Assembly: GCF_002305895.1 (NCBI RefSeq)
Contig: NZ_CP022203.1
Span: forward strand, 474,501 to 538,500
Source: Corallococcus macrosporus DSM 14697
GTDB taxonomy: Bacteria > Myxococcota > Myxococcia > Myxococcales > Myxococcaceae
Length of the DNA stretch: 64,000 nucleotides
Direction of reading: 5' to 3'
The translations under genes and the position numbers were made by a program. Below, piece by piece: positions 10,126 through 20,427 of the stretch; position 1 is the first letter of the stretch; every line of letters starts with the position of its first letter. The notes under the pieces are model-generated. The model saw only the letters and a list, made by a program, of their open reading frames with translations, ran no database searches and was not told where the DNA came from.

Positions 10126-11703
10126 TCAACCCCACTGCTCCGGGATGCGATTGGAATCGCAGCACGGCCGTCTACCGTGTGAACAGGGTTCGATTCCCTG
10201 TCGGAGCGCTCCACCCCGAGGTGACGCCCATGAACCCGCTCCCCATCCCCTCCGAGCCGGACGACCTGATCGACGGCATCGCTTCCTTCTGACGCCGCGC
10301 CCCGTGAATGGGGCGCGCTCGCAGTCGCGGTTTCCGGTCCTGTAGCTCAGAGGAGAGAGCACTCGGTTGCGGACCGAGAGGCCGCAGGTTCGACTCCTGC
10401 CAGGACCACTTCCCTCAACCCCGCGCAGCGCCTCGGGAATCTCCCTGGAGTCGTCTGCGCGTTGAGCCGCCTCCGCCGAGTTCCGCACCATCGGCGCACC
10501 ATGCGGGTCGCCCACGGCCAGCGGGAGCACCTTGGCAAGAGGCTCCTCGGTTGGCTGGAAGCTGAGTTGCTCCAGGCCCGCGCGCATGTCGTCCACATCG
10601 AGGTGGCCATAGACGCCTGCCGTGATCGTGGGCGAGGCGTGCCCGAGGATGCGCTGCACGACCGCCAGCGGCACCCGCGCCTTGAGCAGCAGGGTTGCCG
10701 TGGTGTGGCGCAGGTCGTGGAAGCGGATGGCGCGCGGCTTGGGCGAGGGCCACAGCATGAAGCCGCAGCCCGCCTTGGAGCAGCGGCGCACCTCGGATGA
10801 GGCCGCGTGCTCGACGCGTCCACAGCGGCGGCACTTGTGGGCCCACCCATCGACAAGCTGGGCGCGGCTCATCGCGGACCGGAGCAGCGGGGCAAGGTCC
10901 ACGTTCAGGGAGTGCATCGAGCCATCCGGACGAGGGAACACCAGCGCCGAGGGGCTCTCCCGCATCGCCTGGGCGAGGTAGGGCCGCAGCTCGTGGTGGA
11001 TGGGGACGAGTCGGGCCCGCCCGCCCTTCGTGGTGCCCGCCTTCCAACTCCTCGTGACGAGGATTTCCCCCTGCTCAAGGTCCACGTCCACCTTCTGGAG
11101 AGCCACCAGTTCGCCGCGCCGCATCCCGGTATAGACGGCAGTGGCGAACAGGCACCGCCACTCGGGGGGCACCTGGGCGAGCACCGGCCCCACCTCCTCG
11201 GCCTTGAGGTAGGACGGGGCACGTTTGGGCACCTTGCGCCGAGGGACGGCATCCACGGGGCTGGCGCCCTTCCAGAGCCCGCGCTGGATGGCTTTAGAGA
11301 AGACGGTCTGCGCGAAGCCGCGCAGGTTGTTGACCGACTTGGGCGACAGGTCGGCGGCTGCGGAGAGCGCCTCATCAATGCGAGCCGTGGTCACCTCGGG
11401 GAGGGCCAACGCGCCCAGGCGGGGCCGAAGGTGCTTCTCGGCCGCGAGCCGGTCCCCCTGGGAGCGAAGCTGCCCGGCGAAGTTCTGCGCGTACCAGTCG
11501 AGCAGTTCCCCGAAGGTGAGGGAGACGGGGACCTCGATGGGCTCCAGCCCGAGGCGCTGGAACTCGGCCTTGCGCTCCAACTCGCGTGCGAGTTCCTGGG
11601 CTGCGAGCTTCGTGGCGCAGTTGGTTCGACGCTGCACCCACCGGCCCGCCCCGTTTTTCCACTTCACCACCCATGAACCATCGCGCTTGAAGATGCTGGC
11701 CAT
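10126..11703 (-). CDS. tyrosine recombinase (integrase); C-terminus formed by chromosomal tRNA region
   Basis: 525 residues from the ATG at 11703, two bases after the stop of the XRE gene (ribosome site AAGGGGG). N-terminal SAM-like/Arm region to ~150, then the catalytic domain with R195 (TGMRRGE), H329-R332 (HDLRH), H355 (GHASPT) and Y365 (VYGHL). A four-Cys insertion (C291, C294, C308, C313) looks like a zinc ribbon inside the catalytic domain. From residue 431 the frame runs antisense through the attachment site and tRNA-Arg, then across the Asp-like tRNA, ending at 10126; those last ~79 residues are not conserved-looking. In the excised circle the frame would instead enter the HTH ORF at 19775-20017. 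Phage Mx8 of Myxococcus also has attP inside its int gene. Confidence 0.92.
   Translation of the reverse strand: MASIFKRDGSWVVKWKNGAGRWVQRRTNCATKLAAQELARELERKAEFQRLGLEPIEVPVSLTFGELLDWYAQNFAGQLRSQGDRLAAEKHLRPRLGALALPEVTTARIDEALSAAADLSPKSVNNLRGFAQTVFSKAIQRGLWKGASPVDAVPRRKVPKRAPSYLKAEEVGPVLAQVPPEWRCLFATAVYTGMRRGELVALQKVDVDLEQGEILVTRSWKAGTTKGGRARLVPIHHELRPYLAQAMRESPSALVFPRPDGSMHSLNVDLAPLLRSAMSRAQLVDGWAHKCRRCGRVEHAASSEVRRCSKAGCGFMLWPSPKPRAIRFHDLRHTTATLLLKARVPLAVVQRILGHASPTITAGVYGHLDVDDMRAGLEQLSFQPTEEPLAKVLPLAVGDPHGAPMVRNSAEAAQRADDSREIPEALRGVEGSGPGRSRTCGLSVRNRVLSPLSYRTGNRDCERAPFTGRGVRRKRCRRSGRPARRGWGAGSWASPRGGALRQGIEPCSHGRRPCCDSNRIPEQWG
10137..10208 (+). tRNA. tRNA-Asp-like (GTC), atypical
   Basis: Acceptor GCTCCGG/TCGGAGC, D arm TGCGA-TTGGAA-TCGCA, anticodon stem CACGG/CCGTG around CCGTCTA (anticodon GTC), T arm CAGGG-TTCGATT-CCCTG, discriminator G as in tRNA-Asp. 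All stems pair, but two near-universal bases are altered: position 8 is G and position 33 is C instead of U. It may be a divergent or decayed tRNA. The integrase frame on the other strand runs across it. Confidence 0.6.
10230..10292 (+). CDS. tiny ORF C between two tRNAs
   Basis: 20 codons; the ATG is seven bases after GAGGTG, a good ribosome site. It begins MNP and contains EPDDLIDGIASF, weakly echoing the LNDTVIGI of ORFs A and B. Only context (third small ORF with a good ribosome site beside tRNAs) supports it, and chance is possible at this length. Confidence 0.3.
   Translation: MNPLPIPSEPDDLIDGIASF
10336..10408 (+). tRNA. tRNA-Arg (GCG), attachment site of the integrative element
   Basis: Acceptor GGTCCTG/CAGGACC, D arm GCTC-AGAGGAGA-GAGC, anticodon stem CTCGG/CCGAG around TTGCGGA (anticodon GCG, Arg), T arm GCAGG-TTCGACT-CCTGC, discriminator A. 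Bacteria usually read CGU/CGC/CGA with an ACG (inosine) tRNA, so a GCG anticodon is uncommon. The 3' 45 bases form the left copy of a 48-bp direct repeat repeated at 20106, so integration restores the gene. The integrase starts immediately beyond on the opposite strand. Confidence 0.9.
10364..10411 (+). repeat. attL: 48-bp direct repeat in the 3' half of tRNA-Arg
   Basis: Identical over 48 bases to 20106-20153, from the anticodon stem (CGGTTGCGG) through the T arm to three bases past the tRNA end (CCACTT). It bounds the element on the left. A 32-bp version (from GGCCGCAGG onward) recurs at 24176-24207. Confidence 0.93.
10481..10501. repeat. 21-bp repeat near attL, matched near attR
   Basis: Begins TTCCGCACCAT and ends GGCGCACCA; occurs again at 19959-19979 with one change (T to C), same orientation. 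The two copies would flank the attachment site 69 and 126 bases away in the circular form. Candidate arm-type integrase or excisionase binding sites; both also lie in the same reading frame (encoding GAP-V/M-VRN), so a coding duplication is an alternative. Confidence 0.5.
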
Positions 11704-11705
11704 GG

Positions 11706-11975
11706 TCAAACCCCCTTGAGGCGAATCCGCTTCGAGCCGAAGCGGGCGAACACTTCCAGATTGCCCCCGAGCGCCTCGACGTACCGCTGGAGCGTGGAAA
11801 CCCGGTGGCCCGTCCGGCGCTCCGCCTTGGAAAGCTCGGACTGGTCCATTCCGGCTGCGGCGGCCAGCTCAACCTGAGTGAGGCCACGGAGCCGCCGGAG
11901 ATCGGCAAGCGTGAGCACTTCCGGAGTGGTGCGCTTGGAGCGCGGGCGAAGTGAAGTCCCCATGGACACGAACAT
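11706..11975 (-). CDS. XRE-family HTH regulator
   Basis: 89 residues, with a canonical Cro/CI helix-turn-helix at about residues 22-77 (LADLRRLRGLTQVELAAAAGMDQSELSKAERR) and the ending VSTLQRYVEALGGNLEVFARFG typical of HigA/antitoxin-type XRE proteins. It lies just upstream of the integrase, ending two bases before it, and is probably cotranscribed and involved in integrase or excision control. No toxin partner is adjacent. Confidence 0.88.
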   Translation of the reverse strand: MFVSMGTSLRPRSKRTTPEVLTLADLRRLRGLTQVELAAAAGMDQSELSKAERRTGHRVSTLQRYVEALGGNLEVFARFGSKRIRLKGV

Positions 11976-11987
11976 GCACTTAACCTC

Positions 11988-12197
11988 CTAGCGGCGCAAC
12001 GGGGTAACGGACCCACGGGGAACACGGTGGCGCTCAAGGAACGTGCGGATTTCCTCGGGCCGGAACCGGAGCGCCGCGCCGATGCGCACGCAGGGAAGCC
12101 GTCCCGCCTCGGCCTCCTTGTAAACCCACGAGGTGGACATGGAGAGGAAGCGGGCAACGTCCTGCACCCGCCAGAGCGGTTCGGGGGGGCCGCTCAT
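11988..12197 (-). CDS. excisionase-type HTH protein
   Basis: 69 residues from the ATG at 12197, overlapping the stop of the ATPase gene (ATGA). PLWRVQDVARFLSMSTSWVYKEAEAGRLPCVRIGAALRFRPEEIRTFLERHR is a typical HTH_17/MerR-like excisionase domain that binds DNA near attachment sites. Within the element it is a good candidate recombination directionality factor, though two other HTH_17-like proteins (14343, 19775) compete for that role. Confidence 0.85.
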   Translation of the reverse strand: MSGPPEPLWRVQDVARFLSMSTSWVYKEAEAGRLPCVRIGAALRFRPEEIRTFLERHRVPRGSVTPLRR

Positions 12198-13267
12198 GGC
12201 TCCTGCTCCGTAGCCGTGCCCGGGGCGAGGATGTACCCGCGCCCTTCCCACTTGAGTTCGCCCCGTTCTTCCATTGCGTTGATGGCCCGGAAAGCAACCT
12301 GCCGTCTCCCACCCACCATCTTGGCCAACTGCGCTTTGTTGAGAGGGGTAGTCGCGGAGGCGAGCACCCGCCGTACCTGTTGCTCCTTGTCCTGCGCGGC
12401 TGTCTCGCTCACGTCCTCGATGGTCACAGCGCCATCGGCAAGGGAGAGCGTGAACTGGTGGCGCTGCGCTGTTTCCCCATCACGCCCCTTCGCCACCTGT
12501 GCCACGAAGGAGATAAGCCCCGAGTGACGTGGCGTGTCCTCTCGCGTGAGGTTCACCTGCATGTCCGCCCACCCCGACAGCACAGTGCTTCCCCTTGCCG
12601 CGTGGATGGGTGGCCCCTCGCCGCGCTCGCCCGCCTTCGAGGTGTGGTGCACCAGCACGATGAGCGCACGTGGGTTGATGGTGGCGAGAGACTGGATGTG
12701 CTCCTTCGCCTGGTTCACGGCTTCGGTGTCATTCTCATTCCCGAGAAACAGCGAGGAGAACGGGTCGAGAACCAGGACAGGCGCCTCGTGGGCGCACAGG
12801 TGCGTGGCGATTTGCTCGCGTATCGCAGCGTCCTCAAGCCGCACCCCCTTACGGTGGGCGATGTGCACGATGGCCTCCGGGAGGAAGCCAAGGGCCGTGA
12901 AGCGGTCGAACATGCTGCGCGGCCGCCCCTCCTCGAACACTAAGAAGGAGTGCCGCCCAACTTCCGCCGCCTTCTTGGCGATGACGAGCGCGAGGTACGT
13001 CTTGCCCACCCCTGGCGCGGCCACGATGAGGAGGTTGCCGGAGTCTGGAACCACCTCCTCAATGAGCCAGGAGAGGGGCGGCAAGTCCTTGGTGCGAGCA
13101 AGGAAGGCCGCGAGAGGCTCGAAGAGGGGCGGAACGGTTCCCGGCGGTTCCGGGAACCGGTTCCCAGTTCCCGCCCCTATAGGCGGAACCGGAACCGACT
13201 TGCGGCGATGAGTCATGGCTGCGAGCACTTCCGCATCCGGGCGGCCGGAGGCATCGTCTCCGCTCAT
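12194..13267 (-). CDS. RepA/DnaB-like AAA ATPase (mobile-element helicase)
   Basis: 357 residues from the ATG at 13267, overlapping the primase stop (ATGA). Walker A APGVGKT at residues 84-90, Walker B APVLVLDPFSSLFLG, and sensor-like ALIVLVHHTSKAGE match the AAA_25 / RepA group of hexameric plasmid and phage helicases. The C-terminal ~70 residues (TTPLNKAQLAKMVGGRRQVAFRAINAMEERGELKWEGRGY) form a winged helix. With the primase it probably replicates the excised element. The codons for residues 25-40 contain a hairpin motif shared with two other element sites. Confidence 0.88.
   Translation of the reverse strand: MSGDDASGRPDAEVLAAMTHRRKSVPVPPIGAGTGNRFPEPPGTVPPLFEPLAAFLARTKDLPPLSWLIEEVVPDSGNLLIVAAPGVGKTYLALVIAKKAAEVGRHSFLVFEEGRPRSMFDRFTALGFLPEAIVHIAHRKGVRLEDAAIREQIATHLCAHEAPVLVLDPFSSLFLGNENDTEAVNQAKEHIQSLATINPRALIVLVHHTSKAGERGEGPPIHAARGSTVLSGWADMQVNLTREDTPRHSGLISFVAQVAKGRDGETAQRHQFTLSLADGAVTIEDVSETAAQDKEQQVRRVLASATTPLNKAQLAKMVGGRRQVAFRAINAMEERGELKWEGRGYILAPGTATEQEP
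13155..13195. repeat. hairpin-type motif with CTATAGG loop, copy 1
   Basis: Within the helicase gene: GGAACCGGTTCCCAGTTCCC followed by GCCCCTATAGGCGGAACC. Shares the GGTTCC, TTCCCGC and CTATAGG blocks with 18905 and 19729. Confidence 0.45.
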
Positions 13268-14346
13268 CGCTCGCCCTCCTGGCGGGACGAGAAGTCCACC
13301 CGCTCGACCGTGACTCCTACAGGGAGCGCCTCGCGAACCTGGAGTGCGTAGCGGTCTCCTGCTTCGTCTCCATCGGTTGCGACCCAGCAGGGAACTCGTG
13401 TGGGCCAATCCGAGAGGGAACGGAAGGCGTTCACGCTCCCAGCCACCATGCCGAGCACTGCCCAGCGCCGCCCGTAACGGCAGGCGACTTGCGCGAGTTT
13501 GATCGTGTCCGTGAGCCCCTCGGTCACCACCACGGCTTCGAGCGCAGCCAGAGTCTCCGCGCCCCGCACTGCCCGGAGGAACTCCCGGCCCCGGCCATCG
13601 GCAAAGAGCGTTCCCGCGTAGGAGAACCCTCGCGGGTTGCGCGTCTTGTCCTTCGCCGGAAGGTCCGCCCGGATGGCGCGTGCCTGGATTGAGGCCACGT
13701 TTCCATCTGGCTCGAAGGCGAGGAGCGCGAGCCGGTACACCTCTGGCGGGTAAGGCCACCACGTCGGGTATGGGTAGCGCTCGGGCGGCGGAAGGATGCG
13801 CGCAAGCTCGCGGGTCTCCGGCATGGTGAGCCATCCCATGTCGAAGCCGCGCATCGAAAGGTAGACGCGGACCGCTCCGGTCCAAGATGGGTCAAGGCCG
13901 GAGGGGACCGCATCCAGCGGAAAGCTCGCGCGCCAGAGGGACTCAAGCTCGGCTTTCGGGGGGCGCAGGGCGCGTGATGGTGCCACGGGCTGCATACGCA
14001 AGGGCGACGCGAGAGAAACCGCCAGGCCATCCGCCAACGCTGCGCGCACCGGCGTCCAGTCCCTCGGCCTGGGGTTCTGAGCGATCACCCATGCGGCGAG
14101 CGTCACAGCGTCGCCGTGAGCGTCGCACTCGTGGCAGCGCCAGCCGCGCCCATCCGGCGTGAGGCCGACAGCACCGCGTTTGTCACGGCGTGAAGTGTGA
14201 CGGTTCGCCGCCCTGCAGGCGGGACACGGCCTGATGAATGCCCCGCGTGGTCCACGCCTGCCCACTTCCAGGCCAAGCCCACGCGCGACTGCTTCAACGC
14301 CCCGCTCTCGCACCTCGGAAAACCAGCTTGGGAGGACGAGGCTCAC
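13264..14346 (-). CDS. mobile-element DNA primase (zinc finger plus Toprim)
   Basis: 360 residues starting at a GTG (14346) that overlaps the stop of the AlpA-like gene. CPAC at residues 41-44 and CHEC at 71-74 form a CHC2-type zinc finger. The C-terminal half has a Toprim domain with the conserved Glu in VVVTEGLTDTIKL and the DxD-like VATDGDEAGDRY. This is the layout of phage/plasmid primases (TOPRIM_N/DnaG related). Coupled to the helicase gene downstream. Confidence 0.88.
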   Translation of the reverse strand: MSLVLPSWFSEVRERGVEAVARGLGLEVGRRGPRGAFIRPCPACRAANRHTSRRDKRGAVGLTPDGRGWRCHECDAHGDAVTLAAWVIAQNPRPRDWTPVRAALADGLAVSLASPLRMQPVAPSRALRPPKAELESLWRASFPLDAVPSGLDPSWTGAVRVYLSMRGFDMGWLTMPETRELARILPPPERYPYPTWWPYPPEVYRLALLAFEPDGNVASIQARAIRADLPAKDKTRNPRGFSYAGTLFADGRGREFLRAVRGAETLAALEAVVVTEGLTDTIKLAQVACRYGRRWAVLGMVAGSVNAFRSLSDWPTRVPCWVATDGDEAGDRYALQVREALPVGVTVERVDFSSRQEGER

Positions 14347-14549
14347 GAGCGACCTCCCCGCGCGCGCGACTCGCCGATGAGCATCGCGATATCGCCCGCG
14401 CGCCATGCGGTGATGCGAGGCCCGAGTTTGACCGGTTGAGGGAAACGACCCGAGCGAACCCCCGCCCACCATGTGGAGCGGCTGACGGGGATGAGCTTGA
14501 GGATCGCCGGGAGCCTGAGAAGACCGGGAAGTGTTTCTGCGTCCGACAC
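14343..14549 (-). CDS. AlpA-type HTH regulator
   Basis: 68 residues. LLRLPAILKLIPVSRSTWWAGVRSGRFPQPVKLGPRITAWRAGDIAMLI is the AlpA family pattern (phage/satellite regulators that activate excision genes). First gene of a tightly overlapping block AlpA, primase, helicase, excisionase, then XRE and integrase, all on the minus strand with 1-4 base overlaps or short gaps. Confidence 0.85.
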   Translation of the reverse strand: MSDAETLPGLLRLPAILKLIPVSRSTWWAGVRSGRFPQPVKLGPRITAWRAGDIAMLIGESRARGGRS

Positions 14550-14668
14550 CGATTGCCTCCGTGCTGTGAAGAGCAGGGCAATCGTGAGTCGTCCGGCCTG
14601 TTGATTACGTGGGGACGGCCGGCGGATTCGTGGAGGGGTTGTCCCCCCTCAATTCGCTGGTCAGTTGG

Positions 14669-15331
14669 TCAACGCCCCCGAGTTGTTCGACCCGAGGATG
14701 CGCTTGCCTTCGCTCGCTCCAGTGCCTTCTTCCATTTTTCAAGGCGCTGCTCCCATGCGGAGTCTCGGGCATCGGGGGCATGCGGCAACTGGCTGCCGTG
14801 CGCTACCTCCAAGAGTGCCGCGATGGTCTTCGTGATGGACCATCCTTCTTTTGAAGACACTGTGACGAGGTAGCGGGCAATTGCCGTTGTCTCCTTCGCA
14901 TTGATTCCCGCGACTTCACCTCTCGGCCTGATTCGGTTGGCCTCCTTCAGAAGTTCGTCTCCCTCACGGAGCCAAGGCTCCAGCCGTTCAAGCAAGGCGC
15001 GCACTGCGGCAGGCCCCTCAGGCGCATTCTCCAGTTCCTCCCACGAATCTTCGAGTTGCTCGCGCAGGGACGCTGGATACGGCCCGGTTCCTTCGTTCTG
15101 GATAGCCCGCGACGCCTTGACGGTGTTCTTGAGGGCGCGCAGTTCGGGCCCGAGCGCTTTCAAGCTCTCCCAGAGAGCCACAGTCTCGCGTAGGCGCGTC
15201 GGGCGATGGACCTTCCGCCGGAGTCCTCGCAGTACCGCCGCGCATCGTGCATCTCCGAGGCGGCGCTTGCATTCGGCCAGCGCCTCTTCTGCGCTCGCGT
15301 ATGGCGGGCGCTCTCGTTTCTTCTTGCCCAT
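14669..15331 (-). CDS. hypothetical element protein
   Basis: 220 residues from the ATG at 15331 (MGKKKRERPPYASAEEALAECKRRL). Rich in charged helices throughout, no signal peptide or membrane segment, with Lys/Arg at both ends; it may bind nucleic acid. I recognise no family. Lower GC and looser codon use than core genes, as in the rest of the element. Confidence 0.6.
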   Translation of the reverse strand: MGKKKRERPPYASAEEALAECKRRLGDARCAAVLRGLRRKVHRPTRLRETVALWESLKALGPELRALKNTVKASRAIQNEGTGPYPASLREQLEDSWEELENAPEGPAAVRALLERLEPWLREGDELLKEANRIRPRGEVAGINAKETTAIARYLVTVSSKEGWSITKTIAALLEVAHGSQLPHAPDARDSAWEQRLEKWKKALERAKASASSGRTTRGR

Positions 15332-15427
15332 GTACGCCCCGGGTACTCCCCAGAAGATGGAAGGGGCGCGGACTGCCACGTCTGGGAACCGTGGCCGGCT
15401 GGCCGAGCGTGCCCACGCGGCGCTCTT

Positions 15428-15670
15428 CTATCGCAACTGGCCGCCATCAGCCGATGCCCAGACCGGAGGCTTTCCCGCTGGGCGAGGCAGCAACAGCCGG
15501 ATAACCACCGCTACGCCCTGGGGGGAACTGGCCTCGAACTCACTGAGCCAACGCTCCGCCGAGGTCATGTCGTCGTCCTCATACAGTTCCACCACGGCCA
15601 AGGAGGGCGCATCCCGGCTTGTGCGACGCTCCAGGGCTTCGATTCGGGAACGCAGCTTTACCGCGCGCAC
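15428..15670 (-). CDS. small hypothetical element protein
   Basis: 80 residues from a GTG at 15670, overlapping the end of the upstream gene by 13 bases. Begins VRAVKLRSRIEALERRTSRD, a basic coiled start followed by VAVVELYEDDDMTSAERWLSEFEAS. No family recognised. Coupling to the 15658-15936 gene and the good helical start support it. Confidence 0.5.
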   Translation of the reverse strand: MRAVKLRSRIEALERRTSRDAPSLAVVELYEDDDMTSAERWLSEFEASSPQGVAVVIRLLLPRPAGKPPVWASADGGQLR

Positions 15671-15936
15671 GCCAGTCCTCCCGGGCGGGGAGAGCCCTCG
15701 TTCCTGGCTGCGGCTTCGAGCTTGGCGAGGCGCTCCTCCAACTCGGTGCCCTGGATGACGCCGGCGAGTACCGAGTACCCGTAAATGAGCGCCCGTGCCT
15801 TGCTGGCCTCCATGGTTCCGTCTTCCAGCGCGCGGAGGCAGTCGGCGAGCCCGGTCCTCACGTTCCCGAGGTTCACCAGTCGCCGCCGACGCTGCCGGGG
15901 GGAGGGGGGGGAGGGCGAGTCCAGGGTTTCCGTCAT
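15658..15936 (-). CDS. small hypothetical element protein
   Basis: 92 residues: a Pro/Arg-rich start, then a helical domain (VRTGLADCLRALEDGTMEASKARALIYGYSVLAGVIQGTELEERLAKLEAA) that resembles small phage proteins often found beside primases or terminases. Role unknown. Overlaps the next gene, indicating an operon. Confidence 0.6.
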   Translation of the reverse strand: MTETLDSPSPPSPRQRRRRLVNLGNVRTGLADCLRALEDGTMEASKARALIYGYSVLAGVIQGTELEERLAKLEAAARNEGSPRPGGLACAR

Positions 15937-16030
15937 GATTACGGTTCCTTGCGTCCCTCGGGCTCTGTACCAAAGGGCCGGTTTCGGCTCACAATCGCGG
16001 GTTCTGGCCCGTGGAAGATGCTATCCCCCG

Positions 16031-16339
16031 TTACTTGCCGGAGCCCTCTGCATCGAGCCCGGGAAACAGTTCGCGGAGAGGCACCTTGTAGGCCATGGAT
16101 GCGGCAACCAGAGTGGCCACGGTCGGGTTGGCGGTGCCGCCTTCCAGGCGCGGCATGTACTTGGGATGCAGCCCCATGAGTTCTGCCGCATCCTCTTGAG
16201 AGAGGCCTCTCGCTTCGCGAAGTTCGCGGAGTCGCGCACCAAGTAGCCTGCGTTCACGCTTGATGGCAGGCGCCAAGTCCTTCCGGGTCCGGACTTCGGA
16301 ACGTCCATGGGAGTGTGGTGACTTACGGGCTACCGGCAC
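16031..16339 (-). CDS. XRE-family repressor 1
   Basis: 102 residues from a GTG at 16339. A 24-residue N-terminal extension (RKSPHSHGRSEV...RKDLAPAI) precedes a Cro/CI-type HTH (LGARLRELREARGLSQEDAAELMGLHPKYMPRLEGGTANPTVATLVAASMAYKVPL). It is a close paralogue of the gene at 16398 including the extension, so they arose by tandem duplication. A pair of ACT....AGT palindromes lies 23 bases upstream, suggesting autoregulation. Confidence 0.88.
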   Translation of the reverse strand: MPVARKSPHSHGRSEVRTRKDLAPAIKRERRLLGARLRELREARGLSQEDAAELMGLHPKYMPRLEGGTANPTVATLVAASMAYKVPLRELFPGLDAEGSGK

Positions 16340-16361
16340 GAAGCAGAGACTGACCGGCCCT

Positions 16362-16387
16362 ACTCATGAGTTACACAACTCACGAGT
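16362..16387. promoter_or_regulatory. operator pair upstream of repressor 1
   Basis: ACTCATGAGT (16362-16371) and ACTCACGAGT (16378-16387), centres 16 bp apart, in the gap between the two repressor genes. Same motif as at 16728-16754 and 16788-16813. Confidence 0.75.
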
Positions 16388-16397
16388 TTCCACGCGC

Positions 16398-16706
16398 TTA
16401 CTTGCTGGTGTCCTCTCCATCAGTCTCCGCGAGGAGCGCGCTGAGAGGCACTTTGTACGCTACGGACGCAGCAACCAGGGTGGCCACAGTGGGATTTGCG
16501 GTGCCTCCCTCTATGCGAGGCAACGACTTGGAATGAAGGCCGATGAGGTCGGCAGCCTCCTCCTGAGAGAGCCCCTGCTCCACGCGAAGTTTCCGGAGAC
16601 GCGTTCCCAGGCGCTTCAGCGTGCGGTTGATGGCTGGTGCCAAGTCCTTCCGTGTCCAGACTTCGGAACGCCCGTGGGAGTGAGGTGACTTACGGGATGT
16701 GGGCAC
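16398..16706 (-). CDS. XRE-family repressor 2, paralogue of repressor 1
   Basis: 102 residues from a GTG at 16706, with the same extension and HTH (LGTRLRKLRVEQGLSQEEAADLIGLHSKSLPRIEGGTANPT). The recognition helix differs (LHSKSLP here, LHPKYMP in repressor 1), so operator preference may differ. A palindrome pair lies 22 bases upstream. Together with repressor 1 this could form a two-repressor switch controlling the element. Confidence 0.88.
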   Translation of the reverse strand: MPTSRKSPHSHGRSEVWTRKDLAPAINRTLKRLGTRLRKLRVEQGLSQEEAADLIGLHSKSLPRIEGGTANPTVATLVAASVAYKVPLSALLAETDGEDTSK

Positions 16707-16727
16707 AGGCGAACATTGGCCGCCCCT

Positions 16728-16754
16728 ACTTATAAGTTACTACAACTCATGAGT
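16728..16754. promoter_or_regulatory. operator pair upstream of repressor 2
   Basis: ACTTATAAGT (16728-16737) and ACTCATGAGT (16745-16754), centres 17 bp apart, starting 22 bases upstream of the GTG start of repressor 2. Both are perfect palindromes. Confidence 0.75.
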
Positions 16755-16787
16755 TTCCTGTTCTTCATGGCCGAGAGGTGCGGGGTA

Positions 16788-16813
16788 ACTGGTGAGTTTC
16801 CCTACTCATGAGT
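16788..16813. promoter_or_regulatory. operator pair upstream of the divergent gene at 16853
   Basis: A degenerate site ACTGGTGAGT (16788-16797) and a perfect ACTCATGAGT (16804-16813), centres 16 bp apart, about 40 bases before the plus-strand gene. With the 16728 pair it occupies the divergent control region. Confidence 0.7.
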
Positions 16814-16852
16814 TACCGTGGCCTGTCTTTCAACGACGAAAGGACGGCCGCT

Positions 16853-17389
16853 ATGGAAGAAGAGAACGGACTTGGCAGTACCCCGCGAAGGGGAGTGGTG
16901 AGCCTGGACCTAGAGCTAGGAACCCTGGCCTCTGCGGTTCAGGGCGCACGGATGCTTGCGGACCTCCATGCGCGGCGCGACTTCCCGGATGCGGAGATGG
17001 AGCGGAACGCCCCTTCCTGTATTGTGTCCGTGCTTCTCCTGGCTGCAGAGCGCCTCGGGCAACTGCGGCGCGTGGTGCGCAACGAAGAGGACCCAGCCAA
17101 ATTGTGGACCCCTCACAACGAGGTAGAGGACCCAGCGGCCGGCGGCGAATTTCCCGGGGACATCGTCCTGTTCCCCTGGAATTCGCTTCGACTACCCCTG
17201 GCCATGTGGAGTAGCCGAAGAAGCGAGCCTCAAGTCCGGTCGGAGGGGCGCACGCGCAGGGGGCGCAAGGGAAAGAGCCGAAATCCGAGCGACGTCACTC
17301 GCAAATTCAAGGTGGCCCAGGGGGAGCCCCCGAGCGAGCCCGAGTTGCCCGTTCCCACCGCCTCAGACCCGGGGCAACAGCACGGGTGA
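16853..17389 (+). CDS. hypothetical element protein, divergent from the repressors
   Basis: 178 residues from the ATG at 16853, which has an AAAGGA ribosome site eight bases upstream; an earlier ATG at 16808 lies inside an operator and is unlikely. The N-terminal 110 residues look globular and helical (LASAVQGARMLADLHARRDFPDAEMERNAP); the rest is a basic, Pro/Ser/Arg-rich tail. No family recognised. Divergent position behind an operator pair suggests the first gene controlled by the switch. Confidence 0.65.
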   Translation: MEEENGLGSTPRRGVVSLDLELGTLASAVQGARMLADLHARRDFPDAEMERNAPSCIVSVLLLAAERLGQLRRVVRNEEDPAKLWTPHNEVEDPAAGGEFPGDIVLFPWNSLRLPLAMWSSRRSEPQVRSEGRTRRGRKGKSRNPSDVTRKFKVAQGEPPSEPELPVPTASDPGQQHG

Positions 17390-17694
17390 AGGAGAGGCTG
17401 ACCGAGGCGCTCGCTCAGGTCCCGCATTGAGCGCCTCGTCCACCCGTGCCCCCCGTCAACCAAGCCAGTGCCGTCGACGTTCAAGAGGTTGATGCCTCCC
17501 CAGCGGTGAGGGGGCTACAGGGGACTGCGATTTCGACGAAGTGGCGCGCCATCAGGTCGCGTGGGCGGTAACCGAGGCGGACGAGGAGGAGGACGTGCCG
17601 GCGCCCACGGTCGTCCGGCATTCCGCAGCCCTTGCTCTGCACTGGGCTCAGGCGGTGTAGTCGGCTTAGTTGACACGCCAAGCGGGAGACCACA
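17390..17694. other. intergenic stretch with a terminator hairpin
   Basis: 305 bases without a supported gene. It holds the hairpin annotated at 17404-17437; the rest shows no ORF with a ribosome site that I can defend. Confidence 0.5.
17404..17437 (+). terminator. hairpin after the 16853 gene
   Basis: A perfect 9-bp stem GAGGCGCTC (17404-17412) with GAGCGCCTC (17429-17437), 15 bases after the stop codon. No long U tract follows. Confidence 0.5.
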
Positions 17695-17964
17695 ATGACT
17701 GACGCCGACCACCGGGGAAGCAGCCCGGCCGTTGTGAAGTTTGACGCCTGTGCCCTCTGTGGCGCAGAGAAGCGAGCCCTTTCGTTTTCGCCGGGGATGC
17801 GAATTGAGCCATGGCCGGAGGTCACGGTCAGGTTGCCCCCGCCGACCGACAAGCAGCAGCAGGATTACAAGCGTCTCCTCTGCCCCAACTGCGCTAAGGC
17901 TGTGCCTTCGTGTGACTGGAAACGCCTCGTGACCGAGAAACTCGCGGCCGACCCCACGTCCTGA
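17695..17964 (+). CDS. small zinc-ribbon-like protein
   Basis: 89 residues. CALCG at residues 19-23 and CPNC near 64-67 form a likely four-Cys zinc site with a ~40-residue spacer; the C-terminus is helical and basic. No family recognised. Isolated on the plus strand inside the element. Confidence 0.6.
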   Translation: MTDADHRGSSPAVVKFDACALCGAEKRALSFSPGMRIEPWPEVTVRLPPPTDKQQQDYKRLLCPNCAKAVPSCDWKRLVTEKLAADPTS

Positions 17965-18032
17965 ATGGGCTGCGCCGCCATGCCTGCGGGCAACAAGGAT
18001 CGTGGACTCTCAACACGGCGAGCGCGCTGGGG

Positions 18033-18242
18033 CTACTTCTCCACCGGCTCCAAGGTCCATGTGTACCGGTGGCGGTTCCCTTTCTTGTCGCGCACCGCGA
18101 TGTCCCCCTGGGGCAGTTTGGCGCCCGCCACGTCGTGCCTGAAAAGGCTTGCCGCATGCTGCGGGCCATCCGCCATGATGCTCCGGGAGAAGTAAACCTC
18201 ACCAGCGTACAGGCTGCACTCGTAGAGGGGCATAGGGCGCAT
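18033..18242 (-). CDS. small hypothetical protein
   Basis: 69 residues (66 from the second ATG), ending KKGNRHRYTWTLEPVEK. The sequence alternates polar and hydrophobic residues like a small beta protein (ECSLYAGEVYFSRS, KLPQGDIAVRDKKG). 18 bases separate it from the upstream membrane protein gene, consistent with an operon. No family recognised. Confidence 0.5.
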   Translation of the reverse strand: MRPMPLYECSLYAGEVYFSRSIMADGPQHAASLFRHDVAGAKLPQGDIAVRDKKGNRHRYTWTLEPVEK

Positions 18243-18260
18243 TCTGCCATGCGGTGAGCA

Positions 18261-18773
18261 TCAGCGCCGCCAGACGTCGTCAGGAAGGCCGCGCGGCGGC
18301 AGGCGTGCACGAATTTCTTGTAACTCGTGCAGAATGGCGCGCTGGTACTGGAGATGACGCAGCACCGCGTCAACAACCGCCATCACCCCCACAACGGCGA
18401 GGGCGATAGTTGTGTGCTCAATGAGCGCGTAGCCGCTGACAGCGGCAAGCAACACCCATCGGCCACGCCACAAGATCCAAGTACCCCAGCCGAAACACCA
18501 CAACCCGGCAACCAGAGCGGGGCCGCCCAGGACAATACCAGCAAGCCTCAGGGCGCCAGGGTAAATCCCCAGCATGTCGGCGAGCACGCCTGTTCCAGGA
18601 GCCCCGTTGAGCTTAAAAGCGATGACGAGGTCAGCGAGGCGAACCAGCAGGGCTTGCGGCCAATTCCATAAGAGGCCCACGAAGAAGCCTAGACCGAGTC
18701 CTAGGGTGATGAAGGGATGGCGATCAGCCCAGTCTTTCTTGACTGGAGTCTCTGCGGTCGTCTCCATGTCCAC
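18261..18773 (-). CDS. small membrane protein
   Basis: 170 residues with four or five hydrophobic segments (for example FITLGLGLGFFVGLLWNW near residue 20 and ALIEHTTIALAVVGVMAVVDAVL near 120), then a cytoplasmic-looking helical tail. No homologous family recognised. Possible element cargo; phage exclusion or defence membrane proteins look like this, but there is no direct evidence. Confidence 0.6.
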   Translation of the reverse strand: MDMETTAETPVKKDWADRHPFITLGLGLGFFVGLLWNWPQALLVRLADLVIAFKLNGAPGTGVLADMLGIYPGALRLAGIVLGGPALVAGLWCFGWGTWILWRGRWVLLAAVSGYALIEHTTIALAVVGVMAVVDAVLRHLQYQRAILHELQEIRARLPPRGLPDDVWRR

Positions 18774-18904
18774 TAGCCTCCCGCTCTGCGAGCAAAGGCG
18801 TCAACAGCCCGAGGGGATGACGTAGGGCGCCGCCCACGAGAAGCAGAGCAGTTCTACCGGGCCACGCACGTCCCTTGAACGCGGCCCAGCTTCCCGAATG
18901 GCCG

Positions 18905-18940
18905 TAACCGGTTCCGGCTCCCGCTATAGGGGAGGTAATC
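18905..18940. repeat. hairpin-type motif with CTATAGG loop, copy 2
   Basis: Contains GGTTCCGGCTCCCGCTATAG, nearly the same as the core at 19729 and related to 13160-13185. Inverted flanks pair imperfectly around the CTATAG loop. Lies in the 214-base gap upstream of the membrane protein gene. Confidence 0.5.
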
Positions 18941-18987
18941 GGCGACAGACGCCGTTCGTCGGTGTCCCATGCGGACTCACGTCTCGC

Positions 18988-19641
18988 TTACCTGACCAGC
19001 GTCCAGAGCAGGACGCCACACAGAGCGACTCCGATTGCTCCTAGCCACATCAGGCATCCCCATTGATGAACCAGAAGGTCGAGTTGCTTCTTGATCGCAT
19101 CGACCTGTGCCGAAGTGGGAGTCGTTTTCCCTGCATCTCGTTTCGAGTTCTGCGCCAGCGTGAACTGGAACTGAAACTCCCACCAGACTACCTCGACCCA
19201 GGGGTGCTGGATGTTGTCCCACTCAATGCCATCGGGCACGCTGCGCTCCATTGCGGCCCCCTGCTCCACAGCAAGGCTGATTGTGGGTAACTTCCCTTCG
19301 CCTACGTGACTAAGGAGACGCTCGAAGGCATCTGGCGATACTAGTAGGGCAACTTGGAAGAAGCGCGCGCCCTCCTCGCTCAATGGGGGGTAGTCATGGA
19401 GGAGGCCGCTACATCGGTTGCCGCCTATTTCATGAAACTGGCCGATCTCAATGAGGACCGTTCCAGCCAGGTTCTTGAGCCACTCCCCCGAAGCCAAGCG
19501 GACGTGCTCTTGGAGCGGGGAGCGGACTTTCCAACCCAAGGTGCGCGCGGACCCGCTGGACGCAACGGAAGGTGGTGACTCACCCTCGCGCCGCAGCGTG
19601 TAGTGAGCATCGAAACCGGTTGGCTCAAGGGTAATCCGCAT
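18988..19641 (-). CDS. hypothetical protein with C-terminal membrane anchor
   Basis: 217 residues. A soluble, beta-rich N-terminal domain (residues 1-170, MRITLEPTGFDAHYTLRREGE...WVEVVWWEFQFQFTL) is followed by a linker and a single hydrophobic helix (LMWLGAIGVALCGVLLWTLVR) at the very C-terminus, so it is probably tail-anchored. No known family. Likely element cargo. Confidence 0.65.
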   Translation of the reverse strand: MRITLEPTGFDAHYTLRREGESPPSVASSGSARTLGWKVRSPLQEHVRLASGEWLKNLAGTVLIEIGQFHEIGGNRCSGLLHDYPPLSEEGARFFQVALLVSPDAFERLLSHVGEGKLPTISLAVEQGAAMERSVPDGIEWDNIQHPWVEVVWWEFQFQFTLAQNSKRDAGKTTPTSAQVDAIKKQLDLLVHQWGCLMWLGAIGVALCGVLLWTLVR

Positions 19642-19728
19642 GGGGCCATGTAATCACGGAGCCGCAACCGCAGTTCGAGAACAGCGTCGTTCGGGTTTCG
19701 GCGTAGCCAACTCGCGGTTACGAGGTTC

Positions 19729-19772
19729 CGGTTCCCGCTATAGGGCCGGGAACCGGGAACCAGCGGCCCAAG
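19729..19772. repeat. hairpin-type motif with CTATAGG loop, copy 3
   Basis: GGTTCCGGTTCCCG (from 19735) pairs with CGGGAACCGGGAACC after a CTATAGGGC loop, one bulged G. Starts directly after the HTH stop on the minus strand, so it could end that transcript, but the motif recurs twice elsewhere in the element. Confidence 0.6.
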
Positions 19773-19774
19773 CA

Positions 19775-20017
19775 TCAGCGCCGTCCCCGGGCGAGGAACG
19801 CCTCCAGTGACGCGGCCGGGATGCGGATGGAGTTCCCGACCCACACTCGCTCCAGTTCCCCGCGTTCGAGGAGCGCGTAGACGGTGGCTCGGCAGACGGC
19901 CAACTCCTCCGCCACCTCTCGCACCGTGAGCATCGGCAGGGGCACCGGCCGCACCATGTTCCGCACCACCGGCGCACCACGGCCAGTCGAAGCAGTGGAA
20001 ACGGTGCCAACCGGCAC
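19775..20017 (-). CDS. HTH_17 DNA-binding ORF, in frame with the integrase across attP
   Basis: Up to 80 residues from a GTG at 20017, with internal ATGs at 19957 and 19933. LTVREVAEELAVCRATVYALLERGELERVWVGNSIRIPAASLEAFLARG is an excisionase-like helix-turn-helix. The frame is open upstream through the right attachment repeat, and the codon phase at that repeat is the same as the integrase phase at the left repeat. So in the excised circle this ORF is the C-terminal end of a ~556-residue integrase; in the integrated state it is orphaned and could be expressed alone from an internal start. Confidence 0.8.
   Translation of the reverse strand: MPVGTVSTASTGRGAPVVRNMVRPVPLPMLTVREVAEELAVCRATVYALLERGELERVWVGNSIRIPAASLEAFLARGRR
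19959..19979. repeat. 21-bp repeat near attR
   Basis: Copy of the sequence at 10481-10501 (20 of 21 identical), 126 bases from the right attachment repeat. See that entry. Confidence 0.5.
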
Positions 20018-20105
20018 CGCTCGCGCTGCCTGGGAAGCGCCAATCCCTTCCGGAGGTTGCGAGCCGGTGACAGAGCCTGCGAACTCCTGCCAACCCGCCC
20101 CACCC

Positions 20106-20153
20106 CGGTTGCGGACCGAGAGGCCGCAGGTTCGACTCCTGCCAGGACCACTT
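20106..20153 (+). repeat. attR of element 1 / attL of element 2
   Basis: 48 bases identical to 10364-10411, here without the 5' half of the tRNA. It closes the first element and opens the second, as expected for two elements integrated in tandem at one site. Confidence 0.93.
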
Positions 20154-20163
20154 TTCTACTCAG

Positions 20164-20427
20164 TCATTGCGCATGGTTGGCCACGGCCTCTGCCTGTGTT
20201 GCACGTATGTCGCACGCGGGCGCAAGCGGGAGGTCCAGCACTCGCACCGCGTGACGACGCGTGTCGGGACGGAGGTGGGCATACCGCTCCGTCATGCCGA
20301 TGGTGGCGTGCTCCATCAGCTCTTGGATGACCTTCAGCACGTCGCGCGGACGACGCTCCAATGGATCCCGGCGCAGGCTCCCGGCGTGCGTTGACGAAGC
20401 AGCCGACCGTATGACGGCGGCCCTCAA
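20164..20427 (-). pseudogene. tyrosine integrase, C-terminal fragment
   Basis: About 87 codons. VIQELMEHATIGMTERYAHL contains the catalytic His and Tyr of a tyrosine recombinase (normally GHxx...Y), but the Arg and HxxR portions are absent, and the residues before VIQELM are out of context. The tail PACDIRATQAEAVANHAQ ends 10 bases before the attachment repeat. Remnant of the integrase of element 2. Confidence 0.75.
20197..20214. repeat. 18-bp direct repeat, left copy
   Basis: TGTTGCACGTATGTCGCA, identical at 24037-24054. On the minus strand both encode CDIRAT at an integrase-like C-terminus. Possibly another, older attachment core used by element 2. Confidence 0.55.

Follow-up and report, generated by a model that had tools for sequence, protein, structure and literature searches.

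In a 64-kb stretch of the Corallococcus macrosporus DSM 14697 genome (the window, in whose numbering positions are given), we found a mobile element of 9742 bp (about 9.7 kb) whose integrase gene, int, harbours an attachment site within its own coding sequence. The element is bounded by an exact 48-bp direct repeat (attL, 10364-10411; attR, 20106-20153; offset 9742). In the chromosome the integrase (Int) ends in residues encoded by the host, whereas in the excised circle the same frame would run through the repeat and a linker into a helix-turn-helix (HTH) domain. The best explanation of the data as a whole, to which we give a probability of roughly three in four, is a state-dependent Int-HTH protein with attP inside int, whose HTH domain is lost and regained by recombination.

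The 48-bp repeat corresponds to the 3′ part of a tRNA-Arg(GCG) gene that is intact at attL (10336-10409, plus strand, ARAGORN). With this tRNA 3′ end repeated at both boundaries and int abutting attL, the element is of the tRNA-integrating type. On the minus strand, int (10126-11709) is open through attL to a stop at 10126 and encodes 527 amino acids from a TTG at 11709, or 525 from an in-frame ATG at 11703. The last 79 residues are host-encoded, antisense to the genes for tRNA-Arg and tRNA-Asp. At attR, the frame is open from the repeat down to a stop at 19775, and this severed 3′ part of int (19775-20105, minus strand), comprising the linker and an HTH_17/excisionase-type domain, is in the int frame only in the circle. 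Joining the two ends in silico at the 48-bp repeat gave a single stop-free frame of 556 amino acids from the ATG at 11703 (558 from the TTG), with 110 residues beyond att in the circle versus 79 in the chromosome. This is what the initial annotation had proposed: int and the HTH open reading frame (ORF) were said to be open through the left and right repeats in the same phase, to join into one frame of about 556 residues stopping at 19775, and to exchange this tail upon integration for 79 residues read antisense to tRNA genes. Neither a stop codon nor a phase break at the crossover, both named there as speaking against the fusion, was present in the in silico junction.

As a test for a tyrosine recombinase, we searched for a Phage_integrase catalytic domain with the R-K-H-R-H-Y residues. 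Int matches PF00589 (1.5e-21, residues 184-371) and contains the family-invariant R195, K226, R332, H355 and Y365 as well as an HDLRH motif. The 80-residue ORF of the tail matches HTH_17 (PF12728, 6.4e-14, 52.4 bits against a cut-off of 27) and the 'excisionase family' model TIGR01764 (8.8e-12, 45.2 bits against a cut-off of 28.8), in line with the excisionase-like HTH predicted initially. The order in the circle-form protein is therefore catalytic integrase, att-encoded part, linker and HTH_17/excisionase-type domain. This order agrees with the initial annotation, but the catalytic domain had been extended to about residue 430, whereas the Phage_integrase match stops at residue 371.

To learn how far this arrangement is conserved, we used 147 genomes of the class, of which 62 contained tails and 62 contained integrases. 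For each pair of int and tail, att was taken as the longest common stretch, chosen without regard to frame, and the halves were then joined. The two genes lie on the same strand, mostly 3.5-13 kb and sometimes 31-83 kb apart. In 26 of 28 joinable myxobacterial elements, HTH and integrase shared their phase across att, and the alternative named in the initial annotation, an HTH never in frame with int in homologues, does not hold. In 23 of the elements the joined frame was fully open (the window's element, L069, L070/L190, L071, L072, L074, L075, L077, L078, L082-L089, L091, L093, L204, L272+L271, L276+L275 and L106+L277). Against an expectation of one in three, 26 of 28 has a probability of about 1e-10 if the joins are independent, and of about 2e-5 if only ten integrase clusters at 60% identity are counted. 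The integrases of the joined elements are as low as 33% identical, and the tRNA genes recognised at attL are at least nine: Arg(GCG, CCG, ACG), Met, Pro(CGG, GGG), Val(GAC) and Gly(CCC, GCC). The integrated form ends in 1-98 residues, depending on the element, and the circle-form tails comprise 100-161 residues, HTH included. Distances between integrases and between HTH domains are correlated over 16 elements (Mantel r 0.81, p about 0.0002). In the genome scan, only Myxococcota were among the matches listed for the integrase family at more than about 37% identity, with named hosts including Archangium lansinium, A. violaceum, Myxococcus vastator and Hyalangium versicolor. None of 80 integrase relatives in viral contigs carried the HTH tail, and no near-identical copy of the element was found in phage records.

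The Int-att-HTH arrangement also bounds stretches of 57, 83 and 75 kb (L271/L272, L275/L276 and L106/L277, respectively), so that larger elements or prophages probably use it as well. Four contigs in which int and tail are contiguous (L076, L079, L080 and L081) were not used as proof of a fused form, because the int-side and tail-side half-sites differ in L076, L079 and L080. This suggests that these three are junctions between two different elements, which may be the reason for the broken frame in L076 and L080.

Two further tail copies, 90% and 87% identical, were found in the same genome (8.97 Mb, single contig) at a tRNA-Met locus. In one decayed copy, a C-terminal int fragment reads through the att peptide SGPSWIRTRDQSVMS into the linker known from the window (RGGAGWQ...) in one frame; thus, with another tRNA core, both frame and linker are the same. 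The linker is followed by an apparent IS3-type insertion, beyond which the HTH resumes; this IS3-like, transposase-coding insertion sits exactly between linker and HTH. At least two related elements have left decayed ends at this locus (L004, 3673-3834 and 13465-17790).

We propose that the gene in the excised circle would encode the 556-residue Int-linker-HTH protein, and that this fusion would be made. Strand exchange at the tRNA gene would cut int at the core. The catalytic integrase with a short, host-specified end would then stay at attL, and P′ together with an HTH part lacking promoter and start would stay at attR until excision restored the fusion. The full form may favour attP x attB integration, with the HTH holding on to attP or making the synapse more stable. 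By analogy with IntP and IntX of the Myxococcus phage Mx8, the shortened form may be weaker or differently specific, so that the element stays integrated. Integration is likely the task of the full form, because the chromosome-made form of Mx8 was reported to be less active. Excision could be served by a separate small HTH_17 protein, encoded two genes upstream of int (11988-12251, minus strand, Pfam 1.2e-10; its TIGR01764 score is slightly under the cut-off). This gene would be a better excisionase candidate than the tail; its position upstream of int is comparable to that of Mx8 uoi, which lies directly upstream of int.

The alternative that survives best assigns the opposite role to the tail. 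Here the HTH would be a tethered directionality factor: the fusion made from the circle would excise and block re-integration, chromosome-made Int could not excise, and positive feedback would let each of the two states sustain itself, as in a memory switch. The match of the tail to the excisionase model above its cut-off fits this idea, and small HTH proteins do act as directionality factors in HTH_17-type systems. However, the element of the window has its separate HTH_17 gene upstream of int, matches to HTH models lie directly upstream of int in many other elements, and of the two Mx8 forms it is the phage form that integrates and has the higher activity (PMC4701971). We consider a tethered excision factor unlikely.

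Selection on the tail was estimated from 13 close tails, and stop and start codons were counted in 18 elements. In the HTH, substitution rates at codon positions 1, 2 and 3 were 0.073, 0.033 and 0.249, and the ratio of nonsynonymous to synonymous substitution (dN/dS) was 0.13 in this frame, whereas the two alternative frames gave 1.6 and 3.6. Judged by these rates, the HTH is under purifying selection at the protein level and thus translated. In the tail-side linkers of the 18 elements, no in-frame stop was found in 1103 codons, where about 26 are expected from base composition; the other two frames contain 31 in 2188 (10 and 21). These 18 leave out the stop-bearing L073 and L107/L269, whose inclusion would give two in-frame stops. 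Phase conservation and the stop counts led us to reject a chance open frame in GC-rich DNA. An in-frame start with a Shine-Dalgarno (SD)-like motif is missing in 15 of the 18 linkers, two of which lack any in-frame start codon. Because the HTH has a dN/dS of 0.13 yet almost never its own start codon and ribosome site, it is most likely made only as a fusion to the integrase, whose frame would be its entry.

These counts also bear on the view that the HTH is a stand-alone gene with its own start in the integrated state and that the shared frame is a GC-rich by-product. The window does hold many long spurious ORFs, and in some copies an ATG directly precedes the HTH (MLTVREV). This ATG is, however, not conserved (LLTV in L007 and L014-L016), and neither the missing SD-start combinations, nor the phase kept in 26 of 28 joins, nor the absence of stops is expected from such a gene. 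We regard it as very improbable.

The linker behaves differently from the HTH. Among the 13 close tails it has a dN/dS of 0.81, conserved DNA blocks and a lone indel of 12 nt, and it is open in 12 of the 13. The initial annotation had asked for the dN/dS of the linker; with a value of about 0.8, conservation at the protein level was rejected, and the linker instead appears to be conserved as DNA, because a presumptive arm site of the integrase lies in it. In all 18 elements tested, one copy of a direct repeat of 18-33 bp lies on the int side of the core, where it mostly starts about 90 bp ahead of it, and a second copy lies in the tail linker, mostly 113-126 bp after the core. Each copy is usually built from a tandem pair of half-sites spaced by about one helical turn (TGGTGCGCCGATGGTGCGG / TGGTGCGCCGGTGGTGCGG in the window, TTGCTGCATCCTTGCTGCA on both sides in L086, CTTCTACCCGGCTTCTACCC on both sides in L078). 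The half-site sequence varies among lineages (for example TGGTGCG versus TTGCTGCA types) and agrees within an element, and the repeats score 13.5-23 versus shuffled means of about 9. In the window, the presumptive site P (GTTCCGCACCATCGGCGCACCA, 10480-10501) lies inside int, 68 bp from the edge of att, with counterparts in 17 other elements, and P′ (GTTCCGCACCACCGGCGCACCA, 19958-19979) lies in the tail linker at a distance of 126 bp from the edge of att, also with counterparts in other elements. They are the sole two such matches in the window with up to 2 mismatches, where 0 are expected. Arm-type sites are a feature of lambda-like integrases, and by position and form the paired repeats look like such sites. 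Since they flank the core on both sides within the coding frame, the whole attP (P arm, core and P′ arm) appears to lie inside the 3′ half of int, with the HTH encoded beyond P′. Beyond shuffled controls, no further shared DNA motif to which the HTH could bind was found in the tail linker. That the frame is open only because arms and core are needed as DNA, the tail having no role as protein, would suit the DNA-like conservation of the linker (dN/dS 0.81, with its GAPVVRN block least variable at third positions) and the arm-like repeats in it, but sites that act as DNA need no open frame and the HTH past the arm has a dN/dS of 0.13 without other means of expression, which makes this the most improbable of the alternatives.

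Several observations weigh against a state-dependent Int-HTH protein. Three in-phase joins are damaged (L073 by a TAG, L107+L269 by a stop at the junction and L102+L274 by a frameshift inside the HTH), and two joins are out of phase (L108+L270 and L220). L108+L270 has an integrase without a start and an att frame unlike that of its relatives, with the tail in the relatives' frame, and L220 is an integrase fragment; the copies with stops, frameshifts or phase differences look decayed, and both out-of-phase cases involve damaged integrases. Because of common ancestry the joins cannot be counted as independent (the integrases form 10 clusters at 60% identity), the att repeat is only 18-25 bp long in five elements, and some family members (L100 and L101) stop short of att, the stretch examined having yielded no tail. 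The amino acids of the linker are scarcely constrained, as its dN/dS indicates. The joint frame, its conservation, the codon-level selection on the HTH and the paired arm-like repeats can be read directly from the DNA, whereas the Int-HTH protein and its restoration by excision are predicted from it. Finally, the Mx8 activity data may not be transferable, as the Mx8 tail has no recognisable HTH_17.

The remaining genes identify a small tRNA-integrating element carrying an integrase, a helicase, a primase and regulators, all on the minus strand. An Xre-type HTH_3 regulator (11706-11975, Pfam 7.6e-9) is located between the small HTH gene and int, and profile matches place replication genes at 12194-14472 (AAA/DnaB-like helicase, 12194-13885; Toprim primase, 13264-14472). 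An AlpA-type regulator (14343-14549, PF05930, 1.5e-8) adjoins the primase gene, as in P4-like satellites. This regulator, and the fact that no structural gene, capsid and terminase included, was recognised in the set of scanned proteins, make it possible that the element lives as a satellite. Two tandem Xre-type genes (16031-16339 and 16398-16706) are 75% identical in DNA, and palindromic, operator-like ACTCATGAGT sites were found near them at 16362, 16378, 16745 and 16804 (4 matches versus 0.56 expected). A repeat of about 35 bp (GGTTCCGG.TTCCCGC-TATAGG) is present in three copies (13159-13196, 18910-18942 and 19724-19761) and is conserved at the tRNA-Met locus, too, directly behind the stop codon of the tail (L004, 13417-13450). 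Strong hairpin folds were obtained for two of the three (z about -2.7); a terminator, an origin or a regulatory element are options. Outside the element, an integrase C-terminal remnant (EHATIGMTERYAHLRPD, 20164-20427, minus strand, weak PF00589 match of 0.0035) abuts attR, which suggests an older element at the same tRNA.

If the proposed mechanism is correct, the enzyme edits its own gene and gains or loses a DNA-binding domain with each reaction. An arrangement familiar from two Myxococcus phages becomes a widespread, conserved and testable design, a natural example in which swapping a domain controls directionality, and a ready-made two-state recombination memory. It would account for orphan HTH_17 ORFs beside tRNA fragments and for the odd tRNA-antisense C-termini of annotated integrases, and it offers a rule for finding where myxobacterial elements really end, namely by joining attL to attR and checking for Int-HTH. 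More tentatively, and with somewhat less than an even chance of being right, there may be a large, Myxococcota-wide family in which recombination attaches and detaches an accessory DNA-binding domain of the recombinase, with all of attP, core and both arms, inside the coding sequence, so that the swap sets the direction and two states maintain themselves without a switch gene.

Integrases altered by integration are known from very few cases (PMC4701971). In Mx8, which the initial annotation had rightly cited as a precedent, attP lies inside int and integration swaps 112 C-terminal residues for 13, giving a less active enzyme (PMC6070905, PMC4701971). The window's element resembles Mx8 in having a Myxococcus-type tyrosine integrase with attP within int and a C-terminus altered by integration. 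In contrast, the Mx8 integrase (533 amino acids) is only distantly related, without close kinship over the whole protein including the tail, and neither an HTH_17 nor, by the same test, an arm-like pair was found in it. The work on IntP and IntX is reportedly that of Tojo in 1996 and Magrini in 1999.

The best phage match for both halves was Mx9. Its Int (AY247757) is a contiguous, annotated ORF of 548 amino acids with a Phage_integrase domain, a tRNA-like segment and an HTH_17 at 489-537. Its integrase is 34% identical to that of the window and has the same order of catalytic part, tRNA-derived segment and HTH_17, so that the window's element has a precedent in the databases. It differs in that Mx9 is a full phage, its att-like segment (2005-2043), read from the sequence as an antisense 5′ tRNA part, is only about 25 bp from the HTH, and no arm pair was found by the same test. 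Mx9 was reportedly studied by Julien in 2003. Integrase switching by integration is thus already known from Mx8, and Mx9 Int is an earlier instance of the domain order; beyond these, the exchange of an HTH domain, the conservation and spread of this domain, and arms embedded in the gene are new. In the literature searched, outside of which lay the Mx8 and Mx9 primary papers, we found no description of an HTH as the swapped part.

Other systems share the principle. In the streptococcal ICEs (integrative and conjugative elements) that integrate into rumA, att lies in the integrase gene, which has another C-terminus when excised, but these are serine integrases (PMC4701971). In the integration-dependent immunity of mycobacteriophage BPs, attP also lies inside a gene and integration alters the C-terminus and function of a regulatory protein; there, however, a repressor loses a degradation tag, whereas here a recombinase loses a DNA-binding domain (PMC4557955). 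The 'suicidal' archaeal integrases of the SSV1 type, which the Islander paper mentions together with Mx8 (PMC4383910), likewise have the site inside an integrase gene that is split by integration. In these, N-terminal and catalytic parts are separated and the enzyme is inactivated, whereas the element described here keeps the catalytic domain whole on the attL side and loses only the added HTH (PMC8371274). A 2021 review considers self-disrupting recombinases exclusive to archaea (PMC8371274), to which the family described here would be a milder bacterial counterpart.

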